IMG/VR virus record: IMGVR_UViG_3300046096_000628
Coordinates: 1-64,000 of that record
Reading direction: 5' to 3' (one strand)
Length of the DNA stretch: 64,000 nucleotides
Source: a virus
The notes beneath the pieces are model-generated. The model made no database searches. It saw only the letters and a program-made list of their open reading frames with translations, and was not told the DNA's origin. A program made the position numbers and the translations under genes. This document shows positions 305 through 31,435 of this stretch, one piece after another. Position 1 is the first letter of the stretch. Each line of letters opens with the position of its first letter.

Positions 305-586
305 ATGACCACCAAAGCAGAGTCGATGGCAGAGGAGGTGCGGGAGTACTACGCTCCGTATAGCACCCAAGCAAACCAAATTGCAGCAATGCTAACTGTG
401 CAGAACACTCTGCTCAATGAATCAATGGGGATGCTGAAAGACTTCGTAACAAATACTAACCAAGCAATCGCACGGGAGCGTGCACTGATCCTGATCAGTG
501 CAATCACAGACAATAACTACCCAATGGGTGCAGTAATGGACATCCGCCCGACCCTAAAAGCGCTAAAAGAGCTAAACAATAGTTGA
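305..586 (+). CDS. Hypothetical helical protein (93 aa)
   Basis: Starts at ATG 305, 5 nt after AGGAG (295-299); an in-frame GTG at 299 is less well placed. The protein is mostly helical and acidic in its N-terminal part, with no recognised domain. Its stop codon TGA (584-586) is formed by the TTGACC -35 box of the next promoter. Confidence 0.7.
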   Translation: MTTKAESMAEEVREYYAPYSTQANQIAAMLTVQNTLLNESMGMLKDFVTNTNQAIARERALILISAITDNNYPMGAVMDIRPTLKALKELNNS

Positions 587-610
587 CCTTTTGGTTAAAT
601 GGGGTACAAT
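583..610 (+). promoter_or_regulatory. Sigma70-type promoter
   Basis: TTGACC (583-588), 16 bp, TACAAT (605-610), followed by AGACCCTAAC. The -35 box contains the stop codon of the upstream gene. GGG before and CCC after the -10 box form a short dyad. Confidence 0.85.
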
Positions 611-636
611 AGACCCTAACACATACAAGGAATAAT

Positions 637-1083
637 ATGCCAGGACCAAAACTCCCCTTGCCAATAACGAAGACAGTTGTCCACATTGTTGACGGACAGG
701 TCACTCGTGCAGAAGTTCCAATGGACTGGATCCTGTGCTCAATCTCAGGTGAGTACCGACCTCCAGAAGAGTTCCGTAATGAAGGACAAGTGCAGCAATC
801 TCGAACCAACTGCACTCGTACCTACCTGATGTCTATCGGTGAGATGGAGTTGTTGAAAGCACAGATGAAGAAGTTGCAGCCAGCATTGCAAAAGATGTCA
901 GCAGAAGTGCGACACGAGATGCAAGAGAAGACTGCAGGAATGTCTATTGCAGAATACATTGCAGTCCTGCAAGAGTTTGCAGCAAGTAATCCAAATGCAC
1001 GAATCGTCGATCAGTGGGATGATGAAGTTTGTTATCCAAGCATCAAACAGGTAGATGGGTATAAAAATCTATTCACATGTTGA
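637..1083 (+). CDS. Hypothetical protein (148 aa)
   Basis: AAGGA lies 8 nt before the ATG. The N-terminal third is beta-like and has two Cys (residues 33 and 59); the middle is a long amphipathic helix rich in Lys, Gln and Met that could form a coiled coil. I recognise no family. The stop TGA is inside the -35 box of the next promoter. Confidence 0.75.
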   Translation: MPGPKLPLPITKTVVHIVDGQVTRAEVPMDWILCSISGEYRPPEEFRNEGQVQQSRTNCTRTYLMSIGEMELLKAQMKKLQPALQKMSAEVRHEMQEKTAGMSIAEYIAVLQEFAASNPNARIVDQWDDEVCYPSIKQVDGYKNLFTC

Positions 1084-1108
1084 CCTAGAATGAATTAGGG
1101 TAGATAAT
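1080..1108 (+). promoter_or_regulatory. Sigma70-type promoter
   Basis: TTGACC (1080-1085), 17 bp, GATAAT (1103-1108). The spacer carries the dyad CCTA...TAGG. The -35 overlaps the upstream stop codon. Confidence 0.8.
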
Positions 1109-1134
1109 AGAGTCATCTAATAGAGGAAAGCACC

Positions 1135-1431
1135 ATGAAAAAAGTCACCAAATCTACTCTGAAATCGTTTGTCCGCAAGAATGAAGGAAAGTTGTTCATC
1201 AGGGTCAAGTCGCGATTCGACGGGATGGTAGATGGTGCTATTGACTCAAGTGATCAAGCATTCTCACCCTGTGTATCATCAGACTGCCACTACGAACACA
1301 ACATGGGTATCCAGGGTGCTTGGTTGGTTCTTGGTTCACGTGACTACTTTACCGAATATACAGACAGCAAGTTCGCAGGGATTGAGGTATACAATAGCTG
1401 TGGTCACTTCGTAATTGCAATCAAGAACTAA
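1135..1431 (+). CDS. Conserved phage protein of unknown function (98 aa)
   Basis: A small protein starting MKKVTKSTLKSF, with a Lys/Arg-rich N-terminus and a beta-rich remainder that includes SSDCHYEHNMGIQG and a Trp-containing strand. The N-terminal KSTLKSFVRKNEGKLFI..KSRFDGM pattern resembles a protein I have seen in many large phages, with no known function. AGAGGAAAG precedes the start. It is the first gene of a two-gene unit with the HNH protein just downstream. Confidence 0.75.
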   Translation: MKKVTKSTLKSFVRKNEGKLFIRVKSRFDGMVDGAIDSSDQAFSPCVSSDCHYEHNMGIQGAWLVLGSRDYFTEYTDSKFAGIEVYNSCGHFVIAIKN

Positions 1432-1432
1432 T

Positions 1433-1789
1433 ATGAGCACGCTCTCTCAACTAGTAGCTAAGCAGGAATGCCGGTGCTACTATTGCGGTACGTCAATGTT
1501 GACTGCCTGTGTTCGTGCGCACCCACAGCAAGCAACTGTTGAACACTTGATCGACAAATGGAGCAGCCCCAAGCACATCAAGATTGAGGATGAAGGTAAC
1601 CTCGTCGCAGCGTGCTATCAATACAATAACACTCGTGGGAACGCTCGCAACAAAATCGCCAGGAACTACTACAAGCAAATGAACGGTGCGAGACATAAAA
1701 AGATTCAGGTAGCGAGTACAAGCAGTAAGCAGCTATACAAAATGTTTGGACCTGTCCCACAAGAGCTATTCAGTCCGTTGACCTTTTGA
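1433..1789 (+). CDS. HNH-type endonuclease
   Basis: A 118-residue protein with the layout of a small HNH nuclease: a zinc-type CRCYYCG near residues 13-19, then VEHLID around residue 37 (E-H in place of the usual D-H), then GNLVAACYQYNNTRGNARN at about 57-75, which gives the central Asn and the C..N..RG signature. HNH nucleases cut DNA using a metal held by these residues. It is freestanding between unrelated small genes, so a homing-type or packaging-type role cannot be told apart. The ATG at 1433 follows the upstream stop by 1 nt. The stop overlaps the next promoter. Confidence 0.85.
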   Translation: MSTLSQLVAKQECRCYYCGTSMLTACVRAHPQQATVEHLIDKWSSPKHIKIEDEGNLVAACYQYNNTRGNARNKIARNYYKQMNGARHKKIQVASTSSKQLYKMFGPVPQELFSPLTF

Positions 1790-1805
1790 ATAAAAGGGTT
1801 ATAAT
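1778..1805 (+). promoter_or_regulatory. Sigma70-type promoter
   Basis: TTGACC (1778-1783), 16 bp, TATAAT (1800-1805), then AGACTCTAACGCA. It lies over the last codons of the HNH gene. Confidence 0.88.
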
Positions 1806-1830
1806 AGACTCTAACGCACAAAGGACAGAT

Positions 1831-2088
1831 ATGACCAATCAACAAGTACAGATCGAATATAAGCACATCGAAGGTTCACGCCACGACGGTCAGACTCGGT
1901 GGCGAGTAACTGTCTACACTGCAGCTACAGAATTCAGCAATGGACAACACCGGACATACAAGAAGGTTGTTCGCGCCTGGGAACACCCCTTAAAGTCAGT
2001 CCTCACGAATCACATCAAGCAGATGTACAGCAATGATGAAATTGTTGAAGCACTTGACCTGACTCCAACTCAACCAGCTTTGTTCTAA
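1831..2088 (+). CDS. Hypothetical protein (85 aa)
   Basis: The ATG at 1831 follows AAGGA by 6 nt. An upstream in-frame TTG (1786) lies within the promoter and is rejected. A basic, beta-rich protein with several aromatic residues and no recognised domain. It is a single-gene unit bounded by promoters on both sides. Confidence 0.75.
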   Translation: MTNQQVQIEYKHIEGSRHDGQTRWRVTVYTAATEFSNGQHRTYKKVVRAWEHPLKSVLTNHIKQMYSNDEIVEALDLTPTQPALF

Positions 2089-2092
2089 CCTG

Positions 2093-2122
2093 TTGACCTA
2101 GAATGAACTAGGGTAGGATAAT
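2093..2122 (+). promoter_or_regulatory. Sigma70-type promoter
   Basis: TTGACC (2093-2098), 18 bp, GATAAT (2117-2122). The spacer contains CTAG...CTAG, and AGG/CCT flank the -10 box. Confidence 0.8.
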
Positions 2123-2146
2123 AACCTCAACAACTGGAATACTAAT

Positions 2147-2386
2147 ATGAATGTACGTGAGCTCCGGGAAGTACTAGAATCGCTTGAAGCAGAAGGTAAG
2201 GGAGAACTATCAATCAAGTTCTCCTACAACTACGGTGACCACTGGAGTACCAGAGTCGCAGCAGATGTTGATACAGTAGAGGCAGCAATTGTCAAGTATA
2301 GTGACTACCACCAGATGCAGGTCATTGACAATGCGGAAGAAGATTTCACACCAGAAGATGCTCGTTGCGTCGTTATACTAAGGTAA
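2147..2386 (+). CDS. Hypothetical acidic protein (79 aa)
   Basis: Begins MNVRELREVLESLEAEGKGELSI, a helix followed by a strand pattern common in small phage proteins. It is acidic, with pI clearly below 5 by inspection. No catalytic motif is visible. First of a two-gene unit; the next gene starts 7 nt after its stop. Confidence 0.72.
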   Translation: MNVRELREVLESLEAEGKGELSIKFSYNYGDHWSTRVAADVDTVEAAIVKYSDYHQMQVIDNAEEDFTPEDARCVVILR

Positions 2387-2393
2387 ATCAAAA

Positions 2394-2609
2394 ATGAAAG
2401 CACACGTTGTAATCACTCACATCCAGTCCGGGAAGCAATGGACAGGTGAGCAGCAGGAATTGACAGAAGACGAATTCCTTGACCTAAAGAACACAATCAT
2501 AGACAACATCAGTTACATGCGCTATGTCGAATCAGCAGAAGGACACATCCTACCAGGTGACTTCATTCGCAACCACTGTGTAATCACCTTTAATAAGCAG
2601 AGCAATTAA
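2394..2609 (+). CDS. Hypothetical protein (71 aa)
   Basis: A compact alpha/beta protein of unknown function (begins MKAHVVITHIQSGKQWTG). It starts 7 nt after the previous stop, with AAGG upstream, so it is probably co-transcribed from the promoter at 2093. No recognised domain. Confidence 0.7.
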   Translation: MKAHVVITHIQSGKQWTGEQQELTEDEFLDLKNTIIDNISYMRYVESAEGHILPGDFIRNHCVITFNKQSN

Positions 2610-2612
2610 ATG

Positions 2613-2640
2613 TTGACCTTAGCCCTAATTAGGGTACAAT
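2613..2640 (+). promoter_or_regulatory. Sigma70-type promoter with perfect dyads
   Basis: TTGACC (2613-2618), 16 bp, TACAAT (2635-2640). Perfect 6-bp arms TTAGGG and CCCTAA flank the -10 box, and CCCTAATTAGGG forms a second dyad in the spacer. Confidence 0.85.
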
Positions 2641-2668
2641 AGACCCTAACACGGATAAGGGAAAACAC

Positions 2669-2995
2669 ATGAACTCAATTGAAACTGGTATCACTAAGCT
2701 GATTGATCATATGATTGTAGACTACGAGCGCTGGTTAATGAACTGCGCTAATCAGGACTATGCAAAGGTACAGCTACAACGATACAAAGACAGCTTCAGG
2801 GTGGATGGTGGTAAGAGCTACTTTAAAATTGTTGCATCAGATGCCGTGCGTGCCTTCATCGTAAAAGAAACAGGACAGAAGTTTAAAGCGGGAGATGTAC
2901 TCAAGCCAGCAGGTTGGTCTACACCAGCCAAGAACTTTGCACGCGGTAATGTCTTGACAGAAGACTTCACAGCAATTGAATGGACAGGTGCATAA
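2669..2995 (+). CDS. Hypothetical protein (108 aa)
   Basis: AAGGG lies 8 nt before the ATG. The N-terminal half is helical (ITKLIDHMIVDYERWL). The C-terminal half (VKETGQKFKAGDVLKPAGWSTPAKNFARGNVL) has the look of a small beta-barrel or substrate-binding segment found in phage proteins of unknown role. Single-gene unit. Confidence 0.75.
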   Translation: MNSIETGITKLIDHMIVDYERWLMNCANQDYAKVQLQRYKDSFRVDGGKSYFKIVASDAVRAFIVKETGQKFKAGDVLKPAGWSTPAKNFARGNVLTEDFTAIEWTGA

Positions 2996-3002
2996 CTCGA
3001 TG

Positions 3003-3031
3003 TTGACCTAAGCCCTAAATGGGTATATAAT
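3003..3031 (+). promoter_or_regulatory. Sigma70-type promoter
   Basis: TTGACC (3003-3008), 17 bp, TATAAT (3026-3031). The 30 nt after the -10 box are almost identical to those of the promoter at 4076. Confidence 0.87.
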
Positions 3032-3058
3032 AATCTCATATTACAAAGGACCTCTTAA

Positions 3059-3298
3059 ATGCTAACAAAAGATCAAATCATCTCTGCAATGTCACTTGAT
3101 GCGGACGGAGTAACAGCAGCACTGCGCAATAACGACTATCAAGATGAAAGCGTTCTCACAGCTGTGTTCAAGGGAATGAATGACAATGGATCATTCGTCT
3201 ACGAGTGCACTTACAATGATACGTACGATGCTACAGAACAAGCGTGCATGGTCTATATCCACTTCAATGAGCGCATGCAGATGGTAGCAGAGTATTGA
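3059..3298 (+). CDS. Hypothetical acidic protein (79 aa)
   Basis: AAAGGA precedes the ATG by 8 nt. An acidic alpha/beta protein rich in Asp and Asn, with strand-like FVYECTYNDTYD. No domain recognised. It heads a four-gene run (3059-4079) served by the promoter at 3003. Confidence 0.72.
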   Translation: MLTKDQIISAMSLDADGVTAALRNNDYQDESVLTAVFKGMNDNGSFVYECTYNDTYDATEQACMVYIHFNERMQMVAEY

Positions 3299-3313
3299 TA
3301 CGAAAAAGTTAAT

Positions 3314-3532
3314 ATGACCAAACTACCAGAGCCAATGGAGTTATCAAGTCCAGCAGACGAACGATCAGTCTACGGTTACACCGAAGCCCAGATGCTCCAG
3401 TTCCGGAGTGATGCTTTAGATGAAGCGATTGATAGAATCAAAATGCTTCGTGAAGACTGGGGCGACCCAGCAGAAGAATCGGGGATGTCTAGTGCAATCT
3501 ATGTAATCCGCAAACTAAAGGAAACTAAATGA
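3314..3532 (+). CDS. KLPxP / YTEAQMLQFR family protein (72 aa)
   Basis: Begins MTKLPEPMEL and carries YTEAQMLQFRSDALDEAI near residue 22. The same two blocks recur in the genes at 7064 and, broken, at 10551, so this is a local paralogous family. Function unknown; the C-terminal part is a helix. It ends with ATGA overlap into the next gene. Together with the next two genes it forms a three-gene cassette that is repeated at 10551-12067. Confidence 0.75.
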   Translation: MTKLPEPMELSSPADERSVYGYTEAQMLQFRSDALDEAIDRIKMLREDWGDPAEESGMSSAIYVIRKLKETK

Positions 3533-3843
3533 CTAATACAATAGATTCACTTATGACCCTTGTAGATGAGCTAGAGTACGCAGCTAGAGAAGAAGCGCAT
3601 GAATGTGCAGGAGCATACGAGGTTAACGCACTCATTGCAGCGCGTAAAGCTCTAGATGCGGCGCTGGCAGAAACGCAGCGTGACGCTAAACGGTATCGTT
3701 GGTTGCGTAGTAGCGATAACTGGCCTGAACTTATGGATGGTGTAGATGCAGCAATTATTTGCGGCTATGCCGGACATGAAGACCTGCTATCGGATAGCCA
3801 ACTTGATAATGCAATTGACGCAGCTATGGAAGGTGCAGCATGA
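3529..3843 (+). CDS. RYRWLR / AIDAAM family protein (104 aa)
   Basis: Begins MTNTIDSLMTLVDEL and ends with LDNAIDAAMEGAA; the middle has ETQRDAKRYRWLR. The gene at 10825 shares all three blocks. Proteins with RDA.RYRWLR followed by a terminal LD.AIDAAM are, from memory, common in phages of Burkholderiales and have no known function. Overlaps both neighbours by 4 nt (ATGA), so translation is coupled. Confidence 0.78.
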   Translation: MTNTIDSLMTLVDELEYAAREEAHECAGAYEVNALIAARKALDAALAETQRDAKRYRWLRSSDNWPELMDGVDAAIICGYAGHEDLLSDSQLDNAIDAAMEGAA

Positions 3844-4079
3844 CCCAACTATCGATCGTATTAGAGGCGCTGGAAATTGCAGAGAAGCATCTTGCGTATG
3901 TCGAGATCAATGAAGCCATCGCCAATGTGAAGCAGATGATGCGGACAGAGCCAATAGCGCGCGGTTTGCACGACAAGACCTATAATCAAGCAAAGAAAAT
4001 TGCGAAAGGGTTCGGGTATGTGGAACCACGTTGGTTCAAGCCGTGGACGTGGTATAACGGTGTGGTAACAGTTGGTTGA
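3840..4079 (+). CDS. QL..VLEAL family protein (79 aa)
   Basis: Begins MTQLSIVLEALEIAEKHL and has EAIANVKQMMRTEPIA; the gene at 11573 shares these features in a longer protein (164 aa), so this one may be a shortened paralogue. The C-terminal part is basic and Trp-rich. Unknown function. The stop TGA is part of the next promoter's -35 box. Confidence 0.72.
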   Translation: MTQLSIVLEALEIAEKHLAYVEINEAIANVKQMMRTEPIARGLHDKTYNQAKKIAKGFGYVEPRWFKPWTWYNGVVTVG

Positions 4080-4104
4080 CCTTTTGTGAATATGGGTATA
4101 TAAT
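4076..4104 (+). promoter_or_regulatory. Sigma70-type promoter
   Basis: TTGACC (4076-4081), 17 bp, TATAAT (4099-4104). ATGGG and CCCAT form a 5-bp dyad around the -10 box. Overlaps the upstream stop codon. Confidence 0.88.
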
Positions 4105-4131
4105 AATCCCATATTACAAAGGACCTCCTAA

Positions 4132-4359
4132 ATGCAATACCAGTGCTTCTACCTGTCGGAGAACTACAAGCTCGCTCACGAAGATGGTGCAGAGGTTTTA
4201 TTCGAGACAGACAATCTTGGTGAAGCGTGCGGGTTCATCCACAACAAGTACCGCGAAGAAGGTCGAGACATTGCTGTATATCAGCCTCGCTTGCAAGGGT
4301 ATCGTGACTACTACCGCAAGCCAGCACGTGATGCAAAAGGTCGTTACACCAAACGCTAA
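4132..4359 (+). CDS. Hypothetical protein (75 aa)
   Basis: AAAGGA precedes the start. An N-terminal acidic alpha/beta part is followed by a strongly basic, Arg/Lys-rich C-terminal tail (KPARDAKGRYTKR), suggesting nucleic-acid contact, but no family is recognised. Next gene starts 16 nt after its stop. Confidence 0.7.
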   Translation: MQYQCFYLSENYKLAHEDGAEVLFETDNLGEACGFIHNKYREEGRDIAVYQPRLQGYRDYYRKPARDAKGRYTKR

Positions 4360-4375
4360 TATAATAGGAAATCAC

Positions 4376-4816
4376 ATGGGAATAACGATCCGACAACCAA
4401 ATCAGCGAATCAAACAAGATCGATTAGCAGGTGCGACAAACCCGTTATGCTCCTACTGTGGGAATCGGTTTAACCTTGTCACCGGTGCAGTCATATACCC
4501 GCACAGACCAGATTTATTCAGCAAGTGGTTCTATCAGTGTGCACCGTGCAATGCCTATGTTGGATGCCACTCAACAGGAGATGGTAAGTCTCCACTTGGT
4601 AGGCTGGCGGATGCAGAGTTGCGCAGAGCGAAGTCTATCGCTCACGCAGCGTTTGATCCCCTGTGGAAAAACGGAAATATGAATCGACACCAAGCATACA
4701 AATACCTAGCGAAAGAGATGGGGATACCACCGAAGTCAGCTCATATAGGAATGTTTGATGTTGCGCAATGCAAGCGCGTTGTGAATATTGTGAAAGCACC
4801 ACCCCATGACCACTAA
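4376..4816 (+). CDS. Zinc-binding phage protein, DUF3268-like
   Basis: A 146-residue protein with a four-Cys zinc site: CSYCG near residue 24 and CAPCNAYVGCH near residue 54. It continues with PLGRLADAELRRAKSIAHAAFDPLW and ends with a short segment holding CKRVVNIV. This order matches the zinc-finger-containing phage family DUF3268 as I remember it; the molecular role is unknown. AGGA lies 6 nt before the ATG; longer in-frame extensions upstream run through the previous gene and are rejected. The last 11 bases overlap the next gene. Confidence 0.85.
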   Translation: MGITIRQPNQRIKQDRLAGATNPLCSYCGNRFNLVTGAVIYPHRPDLFSKWFYQCAPCNAYVGCHSTGDGKSPLGRLADAELRRAKSIAHAAFDPLWKNGNMNRHQAYKYLAKEMGIPPKSAHIGMFDVAQCKRVVNIVKAPPHDH

Positions 4817-5093
4817 TACAATTGATACCTTAATGGTGTTGGCTGATGAATACGCCATACAGTGCACATTTATGCAGGATGGTGCTGGCTTGGCATTAGC
4901 GAACAAAGCTAGAGCAAAACTCCGCGCAGCACTTGCAAATGAAATGGAATCCATGCATAATCACGTTGGTGACAGCAGCTTCGAAGGTTGGTACCAGACT
5001 TACGACCAGCAACAAGGAAATATGAAACAAATAGCGCGAGATGCCTACGCAGCGGGTATGGGCGATCCACTAATATCTAAAGGGAATGTATGA
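4806..5093 (+). CDS. TIDTLM-family hypothetical protein (95 aa)
   Basis: Starts MTTNTIDTLMVLADEYA, the same opening as the genes at 3529, 8018 and 10825, then diverges. Helical, with a Tyr/Gln/Trp-rich middle. Unknown function. Overlaps both the upstream zinc protein and the downstream small gene. Confidence 0.7.
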   Translation: MTTNTIDTLMVLADEYAIQCTFMQDGAGLALANKARAKLRAALANEMESMHNHVGDSSFEGWYQTYDQQQGNMKQIARDAYAAGMGDPLISKGNV

Positions 5094-5242
5094 GTAGTAA
5101 ATTTTGGTTGTTGATTGATGGGTGCATTACAGCCCCATTCTGGATGCTTGGTTATGTGCTCAGTGCAGGGAATCGCGCAATCCGAACGGGGTGGCTAGCT
5201 TATGAATATAACTACCAGCGCGCAAAAGAAGGAAAGTTGTAG
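5090..5242 (+). CDS. Small protein with one hydrophobic segment (50 aa)
   Basis: Starts at the ATGA overlap with the previous stop. Residues 5-25 (FWLLIDGCITAPFWMLGYVL) are hydrophobic enough for one membrane segment, followed by a basic tail. No family recognised. The 50 nt after it hold no gene. Confidence 0.6.
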   Translation: MSSKFWLLIDGCITAPFWMLGYVLSAGNRAIRTGWLAYEYNYQRAKEGKL

Positions 5243-5292
5243 CCTACAGGGATGTTGTATCTATACAATCGAATCAACTATTACACTACAGT

Positions 5293-5571
5293 ATGATAAC
5301 AGCAAGTGAAGCAAGAACTCTAATCAAATCCTTCGATGGTGAAGTTGATCAATATCTAAAACACAATGTTGAACCAATGGTCATGGATAAAGCAGCTTCG
5401 GGTGAATGCACTGCGTTCATTCAAATTGGGAATGTAAATGAATATGAACACATGAGCCAGAAGATAACTCCAACAGAACGAGCAGTCATGCATAGGTTGC
5501 ACCAAAAGGGCTACACGGTGACTCTAGCAATGCGAGGCACATCAGACTTTGGCTTTAGCATTAGATGGTAA
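5293..5571 (+). CDS. Hypothetical protein (92 aa)
   Basis: Begins [14 protein letters not shown]; an N-terminal helix is followed by alternating strands and ends with [16 protein letters not shown], a beta-hairpin-like end. This opening is common in small phage proteins of unknown role. No clear ribosome site. It ends 19 nt before the epimerase start. Confidence 0.68.
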
Positions 5572-5590
5572 TCGAGAAGAATGTGCTACT

Positions 5591-6526
5591 ATGAAACAGA
5601 TTCTGGTAACAGGTGGTGCAGGATTTCTGGGTAGCCATCTGTGTGATAGGTTAGTGGAGCAAGGGCACGTTGTCACATGCATTGATAACTATTCAACAGG
5701 TAGTCAAGCCAACATTGCACACTTAATGAATAGATCCAACTTCACTGCAATTGAACACAATGTGTGCACTCCAATTAATCTAGAAGTTGATGAGATCTAT
5801 AACCTTGCTTGCCCGGCAAGTCCACGATACTATCAACTCGATCCAATCAACACAATGAAAACTAATGTTATTGGTGCATACAATGTGTTGGGACTAGCAA
5901 TGCGAACGGGTGCCAAGATTCTGCAAGCATCCACGAGCGAAGTATACGGCGATCCATTGCAGCACCCTAAGGTTGAATCTTATTGGGGTAATGTAAATCC
6001 AAATGGACTGCGTAGTTGCTACGATGAAGGTAAGCGCGCAGCAGAGACGATATTCACAGACTACAATCGAGTGTACGGTGTCCCGATAAAGATTGTACGG
6101 ATCTTTAACACATATGGTCCTGGAATGGCAATAGATGATGGACGGGTTGTGAGCAACCTTATCGTGCAATCACTAAGAGGACAACCAATAACGATATACG
6201 GAAGTGGACACCAGACTCGCAGCTTTTGCTACGTCGATGATCTAATAGACGCGATGATGCAGATGATGGGAACCAGTGATGATGTCTACGGACCAATCAA
6301 TATTGGGAATCCAATGGAGTACTCCATAACTGAATTGGCACACATGATTACGCAAATTGCAAACAAATCAACATTAATAAGACAATTCCCACTACCACAA
6401 GATGACCCAGTGCGACGAAGACCAGATATAGCGAAGGCAATAGATGTACTTGGATGGTACCCAAAAATTTCGCTAGAGGATGGGCTGCAGAAGACAATTG
6501 AATATTTTAGAAAGAAACTAATATGA
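5591..6526 (+). CDS. UDP-glucuronate decarboxylase-like NAD-dependent epimerase
   Basis: A 311-residue extended short-chain dehydrogenase of full family length. TGGAGFLG (7-14) is the NAD-binding loop, STSE at 114-117 supplies the catalytic Ser/Thr, and Y144..K148 (YDEGK) is the catalytic pair. Long stretches ([49 protein letters not shown]) match UDP-xylose synthase/UXS closely. That enzyme makes UDP-xylose from UDP-glucuronate, or may act on a related sugar nucleotide here. The ATG at 5591 is preferred to an upstream TTG because the nucleotide-binding strand must start at residue 1-6. It overlaps the diiron protein by ATGA, so the two are co-expressed. Confidence 0.92.
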
Positions 6527-7053: not shown

Positions 7054-7063
7054 ATCAATTAAA

Positions 7064-24834: not shown

Positions 24835-24968
24835 TGCGTGAACACGAAATGAAAATGATTCTTAACTGGATTGGTGCAGGTAATGGCGAGCGCCTAATTA
24901 CTGAAGCAATGCTCCGCCAAGCGATTGCTTATGCCTATCAAATGGGAGTTACTGATGGACGTCAATGA
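24834..24968 (+). CDS. Small helical protein (44 aa)
   Basis: Starts at TAATG with the previous stop. Helical (MREHEMKMILNWIGAG, EAMLRQAIAYAYQMG). Overlaps the next gene by 14 nt. Confidence 0.58.
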   Translation: MREHEMKMILNWIGAGNGERLITEAMLRQAIAYAYQMGVTDGRQ

Positions 24969-25236: not shown

Positions 25237-25278
25237 TGCTGCAGACGCGCACACTTCATAATTTTAACAAGTCAACTG

Positions 25279-25306
25279 TTGTCAAACTTTAAAACCTGTG
25301 TATAAT
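25279..25306 (+). promoter_or_regulatory. Sigma70 promoter
   Basis: TTGTCA (25279-25284), 16 bp, TATAAT (25301-25306). Differs from the TTGACC series at the -35. Confidence 0.75.
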
Positions 25307-25334
25307 AACTCCTATCGCAACCATAGGACTCAAA

Positions 25335-25544
25335 ATGCTAAAACAGTTTCAAGTTGGTAAAACATATTACACACGCAGCATTTGTGACAGTGACTGTGTT
25401 TGGGGTCACTCTATTAAAAGTCGTACTGCAAAGATGGTAACACTTGGTAATGGTAAGCGCTTCCGTGTTGCAGTGTGGGATGGTGTTGAAACAATCAAAC
25501 CACAAGGTTCTTATAGCATGTGTCCAGTTCTGCGCGCTGCCTAA
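25335..25544 (+). CDS. Hypothetical protein (69 aa)
   Basis: MLKQFQVGKTYYTRSICDSDC opening; basic barrel-like strands (KMVTLGNGKRFRVAVWDGVE). The pattern F.VGKTY..RSICDSDC..S is a common small phage protein with no function assigned. Next gene 19 nt downstream. Confidence 0.75.
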   Translation: MLKQFQVGKTYYTRSICDSDCVWGHSIKSRTAKMVTLGNGKRFRVAVWDGVETIKPQGSYSMCPVLRAA

Positions 25545-25563
25545 CTACAACAGGGGAAACAAC

Positions 25564-25749
25564 ATGAACTGCCTTAAAGCTCGAATTGGTGATTACATCC
25601 GCATTGATGACTGTGTTGCTCGTGTGGATGCGATTAATCGTTTGTCTGATACAGAGACTGAATATCTACTGGATAACGGTACCGCTATTGATGATCGTGA
25701 CATTAGCATGGACGATGTATTGCTGGAAAGTGAACTCTGCTTTGGATAA
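25564..25749 (+). CDS. Hypothetical acidic protein (61 aa)
   Basis: GGGGAAAC before the ATG. Small alpha/beta, Asp-rich. Overlaps the following frame. Confidence 0.65.
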   Translation: MNCLKARIGDYIRIDDCVARVDAINRLSDTETEYLLDNGTAIDDRDISMDDVLLESELCFG

Positions 25750-25933
25750 TGTAGAAGTCAACAAATATATTACAGCTCGTGTAAAAGTACTCACTCGCTC
25801 ACGCGAACCGTATGCTGAAACAGATCCACACTACTATGCATTGACTGCAGGTATTTTTGAACTATTGTCACTGCAGCTATATTTAGATAAACAACAAACC
25901 TATGAAAATCAAAATCTCTCACACTGTGCATGA
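25730..25933 (+). CDS. Hypothetical protein (67 aa)
   Basis: Start uncertain: GTG 25730 or TTG 25742, the latter better spaced from GGAAAG. The body (KYITARVKVLTRSREPYAET, YYALTAGIFELLSLQLYL) has coding character. Overlaps the next gene by 32 nt. Confidence 0.5.
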   Translation: MNSALDNVEVNKYITARVKVLTRSREPYAETDPHYYALTAGIFELLSLQLYLDKQQTYENQNLSHCA

Positions 25934-26189
25934 AGAAGTTGAACTATCTGATTATCAGGTGGACGATATTGTGCTCAAAAAGATTGCACGGATGTTAGGT
26001 GCGGGTGAGTACTTGCGTGAAGTACCGGTTGGTAAAGGCAAGAAGACGAAGCTGGTAGTTAAACAGGACGACCCAGACTGGCGTCACGGCTCGGTTAGTG
26101 AATACTACGTCCGTGATGCGTCCGAGTTGGACATTGCTCTGTTTAAAGTACGTGACGCTATTATTAATTCGCGCCCGGATAAGCCGTAA
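25902..26189 (+). CDS. Hypothetical basic protein (95 aa)
   Basis: ATG 25902 inside the previous frame. VHEEVELSDYQVDDIVLKKIARMLG is a helical opening, then a Lys-rich central turn and C-terminal helix. No domain recognised. Confidence 0.68.
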   Translation: MKIKISHTVHEEVELSDYQVDDIVLKKIARMLGAGEYLREVPVGKGKKTKLVVKQDDPDWRHGSVSEYYVRDASELDIALFKVRDAIINSRPDKP

Positions 26190-26223
26190 CTCCAATTAAA
26201 CCAACAATCAGGAAAATACTGCA

Positions 26224-26463
26224 ATGATTATCGCAAAACACGCGCGAGTTGTACACTCGCCACTGGAACATAGGTTCATGGTGCAATATAAGACCAGGTG
26301 GTTTTGTATGTGGCAAAATGACACGGTGTTTGAGTACTACCCCGAAGGTGGTAAATCGTCCATTCACGGACCACTGGAAAACCAAGCCGAGGCTATGACC
26401 AAAGCATCCAATAGGGTTGATATCTTGTTAGATCGAACAGTCGTATATGATGATAAACGATAA
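26224..26463 (+). CDS. Hypothetical protein (79 aa)
   Basis: AGGA 11 nt before the ATG. A beta-rich protein with Trp and His (MVQYKTRWFCMWQNDTVFEY). Function unknown. Overlaps the next gene by 17 nt. Confidence 0.67.
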   Translation: MIIAKHARVVHSPLEHRFMVQYKTRWFCMWQNDTVFEYYPEGGKSSIHGPLENQAEAMTKASNRVDILLDRTVVYDDKR

Positions 26464-26677
26464 CGCATGGGAACAGATGCGTGCCATAGAGTACGGCCGT
26501 GGTTTTGCGGCAGCGCGCGACATGTTTGCTCAAGATGCAGCCCTAGGTCAAACGGCGATGCGGTTCGTTGACAGGGCTGGTGATGTTCATCCTGGCATTG
26601 ACGATGCTGAAACAATCTGTGCTGACTTTTATAAAGCAATGACAGAAGTATTGGAAAAACAATGGCAACCAAAATAA
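26447..26677 (+). CDS. Hypothetical helical protein (76 aa)
   Basis: Starts MMINDNAWEQMRAIEYGRGFAAARDMF; helical with FYKAMTEVLEKQ at the end. Start either of two adjacent ATGs. Overlaps the next gene by 16 nt. Confidence 0.66.
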   Translation: MMINDNAWEQMRAIEYGRGFAAARDMFAQDAALGQTAMRFVDRAGDVHPGIDDAETICADFYKAMTEVLEKQWQPK

Positions 26678-27192
26678 GCAAGCCTCCAAAGCAACTCTAT
26701 GTGGTGTCAAAGAGTGCTCCAGAGTATGAATATCCTGTCGCCGGTGATTGGACGAACCGAATTGAGACGTCCCATAACTTTGGATTTCTCCACCCACACG
26801 AGCCTCACCTCAAAGGTGATGCTAGTCGCAAGGAAACACAACATACTTGGGCATACAGACAAACGCTGTATAAAATCGGTGAACAGTTTTGGGTAAAAGG
26901 TACTGAGTATGATTATAGTATTCGCCAGAATATTCAATACAACCGACCACTCGAACCAGAGTATGCACCTCGCATTTGGGACAATGTACCACTCACTGGC
27001 TTCCGTATCATTGATACGGTTAACCGCTATCGTGGCAACAAGTTGTTTAAAGTGATGGACCCACGCGGGGTGGAGTTCGAAGTTACTGTTGCAAGCCTGT
27101 TCACGCTGTTGATGGAAGGTGAAGTTAAGGAAGGTGAGATTATATCGCCGTGTGTGTGGAAAGCAAACAAGAATCTAATTGTTGTAAAGTGA
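26662..27192 (+). CDS. Hypothetical protein (176 aa)
   Basis: Contains QLYVVSKSAPEYEYPVAG, TLYKIGEQFWVKG and TGFRIIDTVNRYRGNKLFKVMDPRGVEFEVTV..LF, a pattern of strands typical of phage proteins with a C-terminal KOW-like fold. No family I can name. No promoter of its own. Confidence 0.72.
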   Translation: MATKISKPPKQLYVVSKSAPEYEYPVAGDWTNRIETSHNFGFLHPHEPHLKGDASRKETQHTWAYRQTLYKIGEQFWVKGTEYDYSIRQNIQYNRPLEPEYAPRIWDNVPLTGFRIIDTVNRYRGNKLFKVMDPRGVEFEVTVASLFTLLMEGEVKEGEIISPCVWKANKNLIVVK

Positions 27193-27196
27193 AAAG

Positions 27197-27433
27197 ATGA
27201 ACCCAAATTCAATTCTAGATCTCAATGGTTTTGACATTATAGTCACGCCAGATATACCTAAGATGCAATTAAGTGAAGACTGTCCAGTCACACCCGAGCT
27301 GCGAATTGAAGTGAATCTGTGGATGATTGAGTTCTTCGGCACTACGAATATTGTGCCAGATGGTCAGATACTATCGAGTGGCCGCTCAATTTATGTTAAT
27401 CCGCGCGCCCGCGCCATGTTGAAAGTATCGTAA
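27197..27433 (+). CDS. Conserved phage protein of unknown function (78 aa)
   Basis: NSILDLNGFDIIVTPDIPKMQLS and VNLWMIEFFGTTNIVPDGQIL, ending in MLKVS. The arrangement is familiar from large phages (short alpha/beta protein ending near a Met-Leu). Function unknown. Overlaps the next gene by 1 base (TAATG). Confidence 0.72.
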   Translation: MNPNSILDLNGFDIIVTPDIPKMQLSEDCPVTPELRIEVNLWMIEFFGTTNIVPDGQILSSGRSIYVNPRARAMLKVS

Positions 27434-27879
27434 TGCAATATCGTCTATACTCTTTTGTCGCTCATCACTACTTGAGCCCTCTCCAATGCGGCTTGCAAAC
27501 TGCACACGTTGTTAGTGAAATGTCGCGATACGCTAACCCAATTTACTCTGATTGGGCCGAAAACGACAAGACAATCATTATCTGTGGAGCTGGCAATCAC
27601 GCTGGTGTTATGACTGCGTTTAAACAGCTGCGGGCACATAATAACGTACTATCCTATGTGGGTGTATATGAACAACTGCCGCTAGCACTCTTCCTGGAGG
27701 ACGAGCAATCAATGAACCGAATGGCAACTGCGTGTGGCATCGTTGTTCCTGATCGATTTTTCGACGCTGTGTGGAATAGTGAACAGCAGTGTTACACGCC
27801 CGCTGATGCAGATGCTGATGTGTATACACAAATTGAGCACGACTTTGTCACTTACTTGAAATCGTTTCGGCTAGTATAA
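27433..27879 (+). CDS. Phage protein, possible PTH2-like fold (148 aa)
   Basis: HHYLSPLQCGLQTAHVVSEMSR..NPIYSDWAENDKTIIICGAGNHAGV resembles the segment of peptidyl-tRNA hydrolase II-like phage proteins (helix with GLQ.AH, then strand DKT.II). The match is by pattern only and no catalytic residues can be confirmed. Full-length homologues in large phages are of unknown function. Confidence 0.6.
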   Translation: MQYRLYSFVAHHYLSPLQCGLQTAHVVSEMSRYANPIYSDWAENDKTIIICGAGNHAGVMTAFKQLRAHNNVLSYVGVYEQLPLALFLEDEQSMNRMATACGIVVPDRFFDAVWNSEQQCYTPADADADVYTQIEHDFVTYLKSFRLV

Positions 27880-27880
27880 G

Positions 27881-28084
27881 ATGGCACCAACATTTAACTA
27901 CGGCGTAGGTTCGTACTGGGAAGGTGATTCTGGTAGTGTGGGACTGTATGCATACGGTAGTGAGATTCACCACGGCACTATGGCAGAAGCCAACGACTTT
28001 CTGGAATACGTACGAAGCCAGAAAAAGACCAAGGCTGAACAAGACAAGTACAAAATCTTCATGTTAGTTGAGGTTCCGCAGTGA
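27881..28084 (+). CDS. Hypothetical protein (67 aa)
   Basis: MAPTFNYGVGSYWEGDSGSVGLYAYGSEIHHGTM..ANDFLEYVRSQ; strand-rich start, helical centre. No family recognised. GTGA overlap with the next mini-gene. Confidence 0.68.
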   Translation: MAPTFNYGVGSYWEGDSGSVGLYAYGSEIHHGTMAEANDFLEYVRSQKKTKAEQDKYKIFMLVEVPQ

Positions 28085-28179
28085 TTGATATGTTATTAAT
28101 TGTTGGTGAGATTGTACTGACATTCTTCGGAATTGTTGTAGTGGCGATCATTCTCGGAAAATTCGTTGACCTTTTGTAA
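28081..28179 (+). CDS. Very small membrane protein (32 aa)
   Basis: GTG start overlapping the previous stop. One hydrophobic helix (LLIVGEIVLTFFGIVVVAII) and end KFVDLL. The final codons are shared with the -35 box of the next promoter. Confidence 0.58.
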   Translation: MIDMLLIVGEIVLTFFGIVVVAIILGKFVDLL

Positions 28180-28193
28180 TTAGAGGGTATAAT
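28166..28193 (+). promoter_or_regulatory. Sigma70-type promoter
   Basis: TTGACC (28166-28171), 16 bp, TATAAT (28188-28193). GAG/CTC flank the -10. Confidence 0.87.
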
Positions 28194-28225
28194 AAACTCC
28201 ATCACAAGCAAAGATGGAGAGTTAT

Positions 28226-28504
28226 ATGAGCTACGTAATCGTGATGAATGCTACCAACCATATTGTGTCAACTCGCACATACGGTAAGGATCGCTATGCC
28301 ACCGAAGCTGCTGCAAAAGCAGGTGCTACTCGCCTTATCAAAAAAGGTAAGTTAGTCTCTGGTGCTTTCACCATCTACGAATACAGCAATATGCCTCGCG
28401 TTACTCACATGGTCACCAACCTGATGACCGGTAAAGAGGTCGAAGAAGACGTTAACACGCCGTACTCTTGCAGCGTTGCAAGTGAATCATACTGGAGCGC
28501 GTAA
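28226..28504 (+). CDS. Conserved phage protein, MSYVIVMNATN type (92 aa)
   Basis: GGAGAG 6 nt before ATG 28226 decides the start against ATG 28214. YATEAAAKAGATRLIKKGKLV, TNLMTGKEV and the end ..SESYWSA match a widespread small T4-type and large-phage protein of unknown function (several end in ..E.YWSM). Full length. Confidence 0.82.
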   Translation: MSYVIVMNATNHIVSTRTYGKDRYATEAAAKAGATRLIKKGKLVSGAFTIYEYSNMPRVTHMVTNLMTGKEVEEDVNTPYSCSVASESYWSA

Positions 28505-28648
28505 ATGAGATTTGCTGCTCAGCGCACGTACAATGGGATCGCATTCTACGGATATGTGTATGGTACAGATACTACTCCATATTGGAGTATGCAATTCTAT
28601 CGTCAAACTTGGCACCCTCCAATGAGTGCAAAGCTGCTAGAACTTTAA
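28505..28648 (+). CDS. Small basic protein (47 aa)
   Basis: Starts at the base after the previous stop. Aromatic-rich (MRFAAQRTYNGIAFYGYVYG, WSMQFYRQTWHPP). No family recognised. Confidence 0.6.
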   Translation: MRFAAQRTYNGIAFYGYVYGTDTTPYWSMQFYRQTWHPPMSAKLLEL

Positions 28649-28706
28649 TTAGCTTAATCACAACTTCTTTTTGACATATAATTACGTTTTACTCAAAGGA
28701 TTTCCC

Positions 28707-29090
28707 ATGAAAACTATTCGCACTCTCTGTATCCTCATTGCTGCCGCTACACTGGCCACCGCTTCCGTCCACGCTGAATGTTACAGCGATGGTGTCCGCG
28801 TCGGTGTAGTGCAGAAGCTATCGTCCAAAGGGATGGTCAACAAATCCTGGGAGGGAGAGTTGGTCATGGAAGGTGAAAAAATCAAAGGTAATTCAAGCGG
28901 TATCAAAGGTGGTAACGTGTGGAATTTTAGCGTGCTGGACCCTGCTGTTGCAAAAGTGATTGACGAGTCTACGATGTCTGGCGCACCCGTTGCGCTGCGC
29001 TACTGCCAGGCTTCCCCACTAGATGTCACCGTGAAGATGTCCACAGATACGCCTTACCGCATCACACAGGCAGTCATTCGCGCAAAATAA
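28707..29090 (+). CDS. Exported conserved protein with signal peptide (127 aa)
   Basis: AAAGGA before ATG 28707. A signal peptide (residues 1-23, ending ..ASVHA) precedes ECYSDGVRVGVVQKLS..G...KSWEGELVMEG, WNFSVLDPAVAKVID and SGAPVALRYCQ. This protein recurs in phages and plasmids of Proteobacteria as an unnamed exported protein; the two Cys may bond in the periplasm. Function unknown. Its own promoter is not clear. Confidence 0.82.
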   Translation: MKTIRTLCILIAAATLATASVHAECYSDGVRVGVVQKLSSKGMVNKSWEGELVMEGEKIKGNSSGIKGGNVWNFSVLDPAVAKVIDESTMSGAPVALRYCQASPLDVTVKMSTDTPYRITQAVIRAK

Positions 29091-29094
29091 ATCG

Positions 29095-29122
29095 TTGACT
29101 TTTTGTAAAAACACAGTATAAT
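29095..29122 (+). promoter_or_regulatory. Sigma70-type promoter with palindrome
   Basis: TTGACT (29095-29100), 16 bp, TATAAT (29117-29122), overlapped by the dyad at 29120-29149. Confidence 0.85.
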
Positions 29123-29149
29123 CTCCGTATTGTAGTAGATACGGAGATT
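29120..29149. promoter_or_regulatory. Operator-like palindrome over a -10 box
   Basis: Perfect 11-bp arms AATCTCCGTAT (29120-29130) and ATACGGAGATT (29139-29149). The right arm also holds GGAG, the ribosome site of the next gene. Confidence 0.75.
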
Positions 29150-29155
29150 ATTTTT

Positions 29156-29395
29156 ATGACATCGTTTGATACGCCAGAACAAGCAGTTGCCGCCGCAGAT
29201 CTCGATGCAGCGGAAAGTTGGGAATATCTCAAATTTCGTGGAATGAACTGCAACGACTACTTGAGCGATAGTGATGTCGAATGTGCTGGATGGGACGGTG
29301 CAAGTCGTCGCTGTGATTGTGGTAATCGCCGTGTCAGCTGGTCAACATCCCAAAACGCAGACGGTAAATGGTTAGCATACGCTGAAGCATTCTAA
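29156..29395 (+). CDS. Conserved phage protein, GWDGASRRCDCGNRRV type (79 aa)
   Basis: The C..C.C block in CAGWDGASRRCDCGNRRVSW is a familiar small-phage-protein signature with a likely metal or structural role. The N-terminal helix (TPEQAVAAADLDAAESWEYL) is acidic. Function unknown. Next gene starts at TAATG. Confidence 0.8.
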   Translation: MTSFDTPEQAVAAADLDAAESWEYLKFRGMNCNDYLSDSDVECAGWDGASRRCDCGNRRVSWSTSQNADGKWLAYAEAF

Positions 29396-29628
29396 TGAAT
29401 AAAAAATTTGGTGCTCTTTGGGCACAAGCTCAGGTAGAGTGCAGTCTACGTACACACCAATTTGCTGATTTTGATTTTGCAGAAGACTATGCAGCAGAAG
29501 TGCAGCAACGGTTTGGTGAACTAATTGTAGAAACGTGCCTCGTGCATGTTGACACTTGGACTGGAACGAAGTATACTCCTGCAACAGACAGAATACTAGC
29601 AGGGATAAAGCAGGAGTTTGGTGCATGA
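29395..29628 (+). CDS. FAELIVKEC-related protein (77 aa)
   Basis: FGELIVETCLVHV and IKQEFGA correspond to the FAELIVKEC and IKEHFGVKE blocks of the 12.6-13.3 kb triplet. Diverged paralogue. Overlaps the CCA-adding enzyme by ATGA. Confidence 0.72.
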   Translation: MNKKFGALWAQAQVECSLRTHQFADFDFAEDYAAEVQQRFGELIVETCLVHVDTWTGTKYTPATDRILAGIKQEFGA

Positions 29629-30728
29629 AAATTTACTCAGTTGGTGGACAAGTACGAGACAGGTTGATGCAACGCGAGTCAGTCGACAAAGACTATCTCG
29701 TGGTTGGTGCTACGCCTGAACAAATGCTCGAACAGTCGTTTGAAGCTGTTGGGGCAGCCTTTCCGGTTTTTTTACATCCAGTCACACGCGACGAGTATGC
29801 GCTTGCTCGCACTGAGACCAAAGTTGGTGAAGGTTACCAAGGATTTGCGTGCAGGTTTGGTCCTGACGTGACATTGGAAGAGGATTTATTTCGCCGCGAC
29901 GTTACAATCAATAGTATTGCGTATGATGATGAGACTGGTGAATATTTTGACCCGTGCAATGGTCGTGCAGATATTGAGAATAAAGTTCTCCGACACACAT
30001 CTGCTGCATTCAGTGAAGATCCACTGCGTGTGATTCGGTTAGCACGGTTTTTTGCTCGCTTTGACGACTTTACAATCCACCAAGATACAGTCAAACTAGC
30101 TTGCGCTATCGTTGAGAGTGGGGAAATGGACACGCTGTCGTTTGAACGGTACTGGGCAGAATTGATGAAGGTGATGAGTGATGCTCGCCCAAATGTTGTC
30201 CAATTCTTGTCTGCACTGTGCAACTTCGGGGCGCTGGCCAAGTGTGCATTTTTTAAAGATGTGTTTGGCACAACACGGTGGGATGTAGTACTAACAGCGA
30301 AGGTTGGGCTCGACTATGAGCAGTATCTGGCAAAAGTTGCAACACATGACCCAGAACTAGCGATTGCAATGTTGGTTGCATTATTTGAGAACAATGCTCC
30401 ACTCACACACCAAGCAGTCCCAACGCGCGTATCAAGATTGGTAAAGAATGTGCGAGGGTTTGAATATGATGGTGATGCATACGCAGTGTATAATGCACTG
30501 GCTGCCACTCGCTCACTGAATGAGAAGACAGAAGCACTGACAGATTTGATCTCGTACCTGCGTTTGGTGCCTGGCGCAGAAGCGGCAGACGAATTGGAGT
30601 TAGGGTTCAAAGTAGTGTCAAAAATCAGCGCAGAACCTTTCATGCACTTGGCTGGACCCGAAATCGGTAAGGCGCTAAAACAAGCACGGTTGGCTGCACT
30701 GAAAGTCGCACTACCTTATAACTGTTGA
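29625..30728 (+). CDS. cca: CCA tRNA nucleotidyltransferase (class II)
   Basis: A 367-residue enzyme of the multifunctional class II type. GGQVRD (7-12) and DKD (21-23, the metal-binding pair) form the nucleotidyltransferase site, RRDVTIN (90-96) and EDPLRVIRLARF (131-142) are the other conserved blocks. It adds or repairs CCA on tRNA ends. The window also holds a tRNA-Arg gene that encodes its own CCA, so this enzyme more likely keeps host and phage tRNAs intact. The stop TGA lies in the TTGACT -35 box of the next promoter. Confidence 0.93.
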   Translation: MKIYSVGGQVRDRLMQRESVDKDYLVVGATPEQMLEQSFEAVGAAFPVFLHPVTRDEYALARTETKVGEGYQGFACRFGPDVTLEEDLFRRDVTINSIAYDDETGEYFDPCNGRADIENKVLRHTSAAFSEDPLRVIRLARFFARFDDFTIHQDTVKLACAIVESGEMDTLSFERYWAELMKVMSDARPNVVQFLSALCNFGALAKCAFFKDVFGTTRWDVVLTAKVGLDYEQYLAKVATHDPELAIAMLVALFENNAPLTHQAVPTRVSRLVKNVRGFEYDGDAYAVYNALAATRSLNEKTEALTDLISYLRLVPGAEAADELELGFKVVSKISAEPFMHLAGPEIGKALKQARLAALKVALPYNC

Positions 30729-30752
30729 CTTTTTGCAAAAGAGCGGGACAAT
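30725..30752 (+). promoter_or_regulatory. Sigma70-type promoter
   Basis: TTGACT (30725-30730), 16 bp, GACAAT (30747-30752). Predicted start about 30759, 3 nt before the ATG, so the message is near-leaderless. Confidence 0.75.
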
Positions 30753-30761
30753 ATACACATC

Positions 30762-30938
30762 ATGTGGATATTAACATTGGTTATTTTGGTAAATGGTGGG
30801 ACGTCTCCTACAAAGTTCGAGACGTCTACATTCACTACGAAACAACAGTGTGAAATAGCCGCAGATAAGCGTGAAACTGATTCGACATACGGATATTGTT
30901 CATTTAGTTTGAGCGGCGGGAAACTGCCGAATCTTTAG
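30762..30938 (+). CDS. Small exported or membrane protein, paralogue of 18686 (58 aa)
   Basis: Hydrophobic start (MWILTLVILVNGG), FTTKQQCEIAADKRET and a late Cys, the same plan as the gene at 18686. No ribosome site. Its last codons and stop lie inside the dispersed 57-bp repeat. Confidence 0.65.
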   Translation: MWILTLVILVNGGTSPTKFETSTFTTKQQCEIAADKRETDSTYGYCSFSLSGGKLPNL

Positions 30939-30955
30939 TTCGGCAGTGGTTTACA
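30899..30955. repeat. 57-bp dispersed hairpin repeat, copy 2 (inverted)
   Basis: Reverse complement of 21056-21112 with about 2 differences. Hairpin ACTGCCGAA / TTCGGCAGT with a 7-nt loop containing the stop codon TAG. Confidence 0.88.
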
Positions 30956-30970
30956 CAAGGAACCTAAACC

Positions 30971-31207
30971 ATGATAACAAAATTCGAAGAACTCACTGAA
31001 CTGGCTGTTGAGATTCGTCCAAATAACATTATCGACTCGCGTGGCGAGATCATTCACGAAGACTGGGAAGAAGGCGTCAGCCTGTCCAAGTTCGGCACGC
31101 TGATTGTGAATGAAGCATTGGAAAAACTCCGCCCGTACTTGTTCGACCAGTTCTACGAGGACACGTGCGCGGAGTTGCGCGCTCACTTTGGGATCAAAAA
31201 TGACTGA
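30971..31207 (+). CDS. FAELIVKEC-related acidic protein (78 aa)
   Basis: KFGTLIVNEALEKL and LRAHFGIKND match the FAELIVKEC family plan. Acidic. Overlaps the next gene by 8 nt. Confidence 0.72.
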   Translation: MITKFEELTELAVEIRPNNIIDSRGEIIHEDWEEGVSLSKFGTLIVNEALEKLRPYLFDQFYEDTCAELRAHFGIKND

Positions 31208-31397
31208 TCTACCATACGAGCAACAAGACCTGGTGTTCCGCTTGCACGAGAGAGCACGCATTCGCCGCCAGATTCCGTCCAGGAAATCTGTCCAAGAGGG
31301 TAAACCAGATCGAATGGCTGACTTACTTGATGAAGCTGCTGCAGAGATTTTGTTCTTACGTAGTGTAATTGAAGCGCGAGCATCAGAACAGTTCTGA
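31200..31397 (+). CDS. Hypothetical protein (65 aa)
   Basis: MTDLPYEQQDLVFRLHERARIRRQ, RMADLLDEAAAEILFLRSVI. Basic start, then an acidic helix. Common small-phage-protein look; unknown function. Its stop lies within a perfect palindrome. Confidence 0.7.
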   Translation: MTDLPYEQQDLVFRLHERARIRRQIPSRKSVQEGKPDRMADLLDEAAAEILFLRSVIEARASEQF

Positions 31398-31404
31398 TGC
31401 TCGC
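31376..31404. other. Perfect palindrome over a gene end
   Basis: 14-bp arms GCGAGCATCAGAAC and GTTCTGATGCTCGC around one A. A stable hairpin without a T-run, just upstream of the next promoter: either a terminator-like structure or a protein site. Confidence 0.75.
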
Positions 31405-31406
31405 CG

Positions 31407-31435
31407 TTGACCTTTTTGTGAAATAGTAGGATAAT
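31407..31435 (+). promoter_or_regulatory. Sigma70-type promoter
   Basis: TTGACC (31407-31412), 17 bp, GATAAT (31430-31435). Directly after the palindrome. Confidence 0.83.

Follow-up and report, generated by a model that had tools for sequence, protein, structure and literature searches.

The window analyzed here, the first 64 kb of a linear virus contig of 139,057 bases (IMG/VR record IMGVR_UViG_3300046096_000628), carries on its plus strand an array of promoter cassettes, and this work concerns the inverted repeats (dyads) found in and around such promoters. The rest of the contig was read too. The contig is part of a jumbo myophage genome, whose baseplate hub protein has its best matches in Xanthomonas phage XacN1 (37.5%) and Stenotrophomonas RAS14/CM1 (34.8%), followed by PA5oct-like, Agrobacterium, Klebsiella, and 121Q-like phages. 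We found 32 promoters of the TTGACC/TATAAT type in the 139 kb, of which 23 lie on the plus strand within 1-31.4 kb (Table 1). They are consensus predictions, obtained by an iterated matrix scan and then selected by eye for context, and their start sites were predicted by placing +1 about 7 nt after the -10 hexamer. The distance from +1 to the ATG is mostly 18-33 nt, and the leaders, taken from +1, are unstructured in their own RNA (mean z +0.44), which led us to reject an RNA hairpin within the promoter's own leader. Gene searches recovered fragments in which a baseplate gene has 100% or about 70% identity, and promoters of the window type were absent from the fragments searched. No relative of two other window genes was found by gene search, and two pattern scans of viral contigs returned no contig with several such promoters. 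These searches thus yielded no close relative that includes an early region.

A preliminary description of this DNA held that most of the promoters have short inverted arms framing the -10 box, and that these arms change together. The arms it named are literally present (TTAGGG/CCCTAA, ATGGG/CCCAT at 4099 and 7800, TGGG/CCCA, TAGG/CCTA, AGG/CCT, and GAG/CTC), and so are the dyads that it placed in the spacer at 2613 (CCCTA..TAGGG) and 7778 (CCCC..GGGG). Pairing was assessed by a swap test, in which each promoter is given the right arm of another and the stem lengths of real and swapped promoters are compared, over sets of 24-74 promoters within one phage. Several stem-length thresholds were inspected, which calls for caution with borderline p-values; the strongest results, namely the control windows of the ribosome-binding site (RBS) analysis and the fresh genomes of Kaldavass and RB49, both given below, depend less on the threshold. 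Most promoters have arms only when stems of at least 3 bp are counted (25 of 32), and the swapped control gives 27, so that this count is meaningless. The mean best stem of the 32 promoters is 3.44 bp against 3.39 when swapped (p=0.39), or 2.91 against 2.89 with a narrower definition of the arms (p=0.48). Framing stems of at least 4, 5, and 6 bp number 13, 4, and 2, versus 11.9, 3.6, and 1.3 in swaps. Per-pair and per-axis covariation tests were negative (family-wise p=0.34), and the spacer dyads as a class do not exceed swaps (p=0.064). Covariation against shuffled controls, the check proposed along with the original claim, was absent among the window promoters; here the arms do not change together.

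The GGG and the CCC/CTC of the window are two parts of ordinary phage promoters of the sigma70 type, each conserved independently of the other; the complementarity of G and C makes them look like a dyad. Of the 22 promoters with a GGG, 15 have it beginning 12 nt after the -35 hexamer, and since this distance is the same with 16- and 17-nt spacers, GGG is tied to the -35 box rather than to the -10. It goes with TTGACC (15/17) and less with the other -35 boxes, TTGACA/T (6/15). The -35 box and GGG may be read by something as one 21-bp unit. The second part, a C-Y-C at about -3 to -1 that is anchored to the -10 (C at -3 in 27 and at -1 in 24 of the 32 promoters), is a discriminator/initiator. It resembles the early promoters of RB69, RB49, and 44RR, where C is preferred at -3 to -1 (PMC1524935). 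The GGG block tied to the -35 box is a feature of this phage, and we found no report of one in PMC1524935. GGG stands opposite CCC in 6 promoters and opposite CTC in 6, and the commonest left arm, ATGGG, faces CCCTAA, CTCAT, CCCAT, and CCCAA. The near-duplicate cassettes at 3003-3058 and 4076-4131, which have a common leader (ATATTACAAAGGACCTC) and suggest that cassettes spread through copying, both have ATGGG as left arm; the right arm is CCCAT at 4076 and CTCAT at 3003, where the dyad is broken. The sole long dyad framing a -10 box in the window is that of 4076, with 8 bp (1 vs 0.12 expected, p=0.11).

A minority of the promoters pair in another way. The stretch just 3' of the -10 box pairs with the Shine-Dalgarno (SD) over at least 7 bp in 3 cases, versus 0.59 in swaps (p=0.013), and when the left arm may lie anywhere in the promoter, those at 16717 (10 bp) and 19307 (7 bp) are added. 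Between promoter and leader, dyads exceed swaps by their mean (p=0.015) and at 8 bp or more (3 vs 0.38, p=0.0075), although one of these three, at 29549, is inside a gene and is probably no promoter. The promoter at 29095 is followed by a start codon at 29156; its hairpin contains the SD GGAG and is followed by TTTTT, the stretch 3' of the -10 pairing with the SD as CTCCGTAT/ATACGGAG. The same hairpin was found independently as terminator-like, and is the only stem with a T-run in the window region scanned. In the helix of the long transcript, the SD or the start codon is included by sequence at 29095, 28166, 25279, and 19307, and by computed opening energy at 16717 and 21656. One might hold that the window has nothing beyond a consensus, with GGG and CCC/CTC as independent sigma70 elements and the few longer dyads as chance. 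The null result of every set-level framing test in the window, and that of the spacer dyads, fit this, but the promoter-to-leader excess, the length of the 29095 hairpin, and the enrichment of the class in relatives at the same place only do not, and we consider it unlikely, if still a serious contender.

Table 1. Promoter cassettes and dyads on the contig, with computed energies for opening the ribosome site (kcal/mol).
Feature	Position	Strand	Sequence or arms	Remark
Array of 23 promoter cassettes	84..31435	+	gTTGACC-TTTTGtnAAAATGGG-(0-3 nt)-TATAAT-ARACYCWA	consensus
Short arms	2117	+	AGG/CCT	sequence inspection
Promoter with framing arms and spacer palindrome	2613..2671	+	TTAGGG (2629-2634)/CCCTAA (2644-2649); CCCTAATTAGGG (2623-2634)	class not above swaps
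Promoter with framing 8-bp dyad, -10 at 4099-4104	4076..4134	+	AATATGGG (4089-4096)/CCCATATT (4108-4115)	contains ATGGG (4092-4096)/CCCAT (4108-4112)
Promoter with framing arms and spacer dyad	7778..7847	+	ATGGG (7794-7798)/CCCAT (7809-7813); CCCC..GGGG	class not above swaps
Promoter with spacer-to-leader dyad	16717..16779	+	TTTCATTTAA (16723-16732)/TTAAATGAAA (16755-16764)	outside TGGGT/ACCCA framing the -10 (16740-16745); opening 10.9 read-through vs 2.7 own RNA
Promoter with spacer-to-RBS dyad	19307..19368	+	TACCTGT (19314-19320)/ACAGGTA (19352-19358)	opening 13.9 vs 3.0
Short arms	around 20043	+	TAGG/CCTA	left arm takes in first base of -10
Promoter with -10-to-leader dyad	21656..21712	+	TAATAGA (21680-21686)/TCTATTA (21691-21697)	opening 10.5 vs 1.3
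Promoter with discriminator-to-SD dyad	25279..25337	+	TCCTAT (25310-25315)/ATAGGA (25323-25328)	sequence
Promoter with discriminator-to-SD dyad	28166..28228	+	CTCCATC (28197-28203)/GATGGAG (28213-28219)	sequence
Short arms	28188	+	GAG/CTC	sequence inspection
Promoter TTGACT (29095-29100)/TATAAT (29117-29122) with hairpin of 13-14 bp	29095..29158	+	ATAATCTCCGTAT/ATACGGAGATTAT (29118-29151)	split by predicted start site; opening 15.3 read-through vs 4.1 own RNA
Downstream-of--10 to SD pairing, beyond the window	-70574	minus	TCCTATT/AATAGGA	
Downstream-of--10 to SD pairing, beyond the window	-73145	minus	GACCCT/AGGGTC	

We analyzed related jumbo phages (XacN1, PAC2, Atu_ph07, RAS14, and 121Q) in the same way, and read Kaldavass and RB49 only afterwards. 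Promoter-to-leader dyads exceed swaps by mean in XacN1, PAC2, Atu_ph07, and RAS14. Pairing of the promoter with the RBS or start codon over at least 8 bp occurs 17 times versus 4.0 in swaps, and this excess is specific to the place: at the same length, the control pairing of the promoter with codons 3-10 gives 6 versus 3.2 (p=0.10), and that of the region upstream of the -35 with the RBS gives 3 versus 2.5. Framing dyads, defined here by arms in the 12 nt on either side of the -10, are above swaps in XacN1 (p<0.002), RAS14 (p=0.014), and 121Q (p=0.038); pooled over six jumbo phages, there are 21 versus 6.6 of at least 6 bp, and 8 versus 1.6 of at least 7 bp. Examples are ATGAGCCGGT[TATAAT]ACCGGCTCAT, GATGGGCT[TATAAT]ttAGCCCATC, AGAGGGGGC[TATAAT]gGCCCCCTCT, and AACGCCGCTagt[TATACT]AGCGGCGTT, two of which sit between co-directional genes according to the annotation. 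Kaldavass has both kinds (framing p=0.02, promoter-to-RBS p=0.007, codon control p=0.33). Framing dyads are also above swaps in RB49 (p=0.023; at least 7 bp, 3 vs 0.2) and at the sigma70-type promoters of T4 (p=0.027), and the T4 late promoters, a small set, have a weak dyad signal. Hence, the earlier idea that symmetry is kept while the bases change fails in the window and holds in related jumbo phages, T4, and RB49: the feature was noticed where it is hardly visible, and it is real in other phages.

Some early promoters of RB49 (minus strand, 25338, 33335, and 43031) have an entire hairpin in the interval from -35 to -10 (for example, GGGGATCggtGATCCCC). As a class, these spacer hairpins are above swaps (p=0.009), and they resemble the spacer dyads of the window at 2613 and 7778. 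Relatives of UvdE were found in other phages and in bacterial chromosomes. As an outgroup we used these phages, whose 77 promoters have 3 framing dyads of at least 7 bp versus 0.2, two of them followed by T-runs, and no excess of promoter-to-RBS pairing; the UvdE-bearing chromosomes yielded no more than 4 promoters that could be used. Hairpins of terminator-like form, whose loop holds the -10 box and which precede a T-run, were seen in two viral contigs (L154 at 9059 and L205 at 9022), from phages unrelated by this search.

Dyad promoters lie behind a co-directional gene more often than other promoters do (47:3 vs 149:38, p=0.01). The ribosome site is harder to open in the true read-through RNA than when the head is taken from another promoter (p=0.006). 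The opening energy in the window is 7.3 versus 5.5 kcal/mol, and 3.1 kcal/mol in the RNA from the promoter itself. This bias and these computed energies are, like the swap tests and their place specificity, shown by the analysis. The excess of long stems grows more when one G-U pair is allowed than when one A-C is (excess of 17.4 vs 13.0 at 10 bp or more). The corresponding count of mismatches within extended stems, 4 G-U versus 1 A-C, is too small to use.

These results bear on the nature of whatever uses the symmetry. Binding of a dimeric regulator to symmetric DNA sites, one of the options of the preliminary description, or a DNA cruciform, would be compatible with the symmetry centre in relatives, which often lies no more than about 2 bases from the midpoint of the -10. 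However, the arms are of unrelated sequence among the promoters of one phage, in relatives as in T4 and RB49, which argues against one such regulator, and we rejected it since there is no shared half-site at a fixed spacing and the centre, arm spacing, and loop length vary. The GGG/CCC of the window lack covariation, and the preference for promoters behind co-directional genes is not something that a DNA operator needs. We therefore regard DNA symmetry as a very improbable explanation. A small RNA made at the start, also suggested at the time, is not compatible with the predicted start sites, which leave the left arm outside the transcript.

The promoter-early stem-loops (PeSLs) of T4-like phages are reportedly strong sigma70-like promoters joined to effective terminators, described from RB49 and phi1. 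A passage of PMC4503421 that cites Arbiol 2010 and Comeau 2014 terms them 'composite conserved promoter-terminator motifs', and holds that they mediate shuffling in these phages. In line with this name, the dyads could be intrinsic terminators serving the gene upstream, placed over the following promoter so as to save space; the -10 would then sit in the loop, and the hiding of the ribosome site would be incidental. T-runs follow some stems, for example those at 121Q +191036, RAS14 +212596, RB49 -3201, and window 29095, and at least 5 T follow 5 of 30 framing stems versus 19 of 350 (p=0.03). Since some stems have such runs, termination explains part of the signal. Yet most stems lack a T-run and their right arms cluster on the ribosome site, which makes termination improbable as the whole account. 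Shuffling by recombination between repeated cassettes might also leave dyads as by-products with no role in expression, and the cassettes at 3003 and 4076 are indeed near-duplicates. However, the arms differ among cassettes and recombination does not predict pairing specific to the ribosome site, so that we give this origin hardly any credence.

We think it somewhat likelier right than wrong that a two-part explanation applies, in which the window arms are two separate promoter blocks and a minority of the promoters are composite promoter-hairpin elements. The latter would comprise about 6 of the 32 promoters here and a share of those of related jumbo phages. One arm would lie within the promoter (in the spacer, the -10 flank, or the discriminator), either upstream of the predicted start or across it, and the other in the leader, often over the SD or start codon or ahead of a T run. 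Because of this position of the left arm, the hairpin would form only in RNA running in from upstream: RNA entering from the upstream gene has both arms and would fold, and either terminate or hide the ribosome site, while RNA from the element's own promoter lacks the left arm and would leave that site free. Neighbouring genes would thus probably be kept apart by such hairpins. The start sites, the folding of the RNA in vivo, and the termination or block of translation are what we infer here.

Several points weigh against this explanation. Framing dyads within the window are not above the control, 121Q is negative for promoter-to-leader dyads by mean, and T5 is negative for framing dyads. Gene starts without a recognised promoter also have dyads, though more rarely (3.5% vs 7.6%, p=0.003). 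The T-run is present in only 5 of the 30 framing stems, and in XacN1 and RAS14 many framing stems lack a terminal T-run as well as any overlap with the ribosome site. Little weight can be put on the G-U comparison, whose stem-length version is only mildly informative, and both promoters and start sites are predictions.

The closest known systems are found in T4-like phages. Like PeSLs, the elements would combine a stem-loop with promoters of the sigma70 type that lie in plastic early regions, between co-directional genes. The 32 promoters here, with their conserved -35 and -10 boxes, are strong sigma70-type promoters just before a gene; a stem-loop combined with the promoter is found by the leader test and not by the framing test in the window (p=0.015 and p=0.39), and is clear in XacN1, RAS14, Kaldavass, T4, and RB49. 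RB49, itself T4-like, has both the -10-framing and the spacer hairpins by our swap test. The jumbo phages studied here differ in standing outside the T4-like group. As a class, framing dyads are weak or absent in the window, where the clear cases pair with the ribosome site, mostly without a T-run. In T4 genes e, soc, 49, and I-TevI, the ribosome site is hidden in long transcripts and free in transcripts from the proximal late promoter, and such occlusion in read-through RNA is established for gene e and I-TevI (PMC3014915, PMC2988022). By analogy, the window elements would work like these leaders: in them, the proximal promoter is in the 5' strand of the helix, which is absent from its own RNA, and the other strand has the SD or start codon. 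However, in T4 it is late (gp55) promoters that are concerned, at a few genes, whereas those here are of the sigma70 type. Finally, the haloarchaeal virus HGTV-1 has an inverted-repeat promoter motif that its authors likened to PeSLs (PMC3950731). There too, an inverted repeat accompanies a promoter box, in this case an archaeal TATA-like one, and the motif recurs ahead of many genes along one side of the large genome.

A few other features of the window were noted. A 14-bp inverted repeat at 31376-31404 (GCGAGCATCAGAAC-A-GTTCTGATGCTCGC) lies directly against the -35 box of the 31407 promoter and extends over the end of the upstream open reading frame (ORF), which stops at 31397. An ORF of 238 amino acids at 52897-53613 weakly matches phage sigma factors in its last 55 residues, and could encode a sigma factor for a later promoter class. 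A NAMPT-like gene (42382-43845) and a cytidyltransferase/NUDIX-like gene (45928-46974) form an NAD salvage pair; in RAS14, a gene for NMN adenylyltransferase/ADP-ribose pyrophosphatase lies just upstream of one dyad promoter.

These results show that an illusion created by two complementary conserved blocks can be told apart from a real signal by a simple swap test, and they widen the range of a PeSL-like architecture beyond T4-like phages, to several jumbo phages. We also put forward, tentatively and with more doubt than confidence, that large phages with long co-directional arrays use hairpins split by the start site broadly, at sigma70-type promoters and beyond a few T4 late genes, such that a gene would be translated from its own transcript and silent in the read-through RNA of its neighbour, which would be a phage equivalent of the undecoded long transcript isoforms. 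If this is true, many predicted phage promoters would double as insulators, and operon predictions for large phages would need revision.

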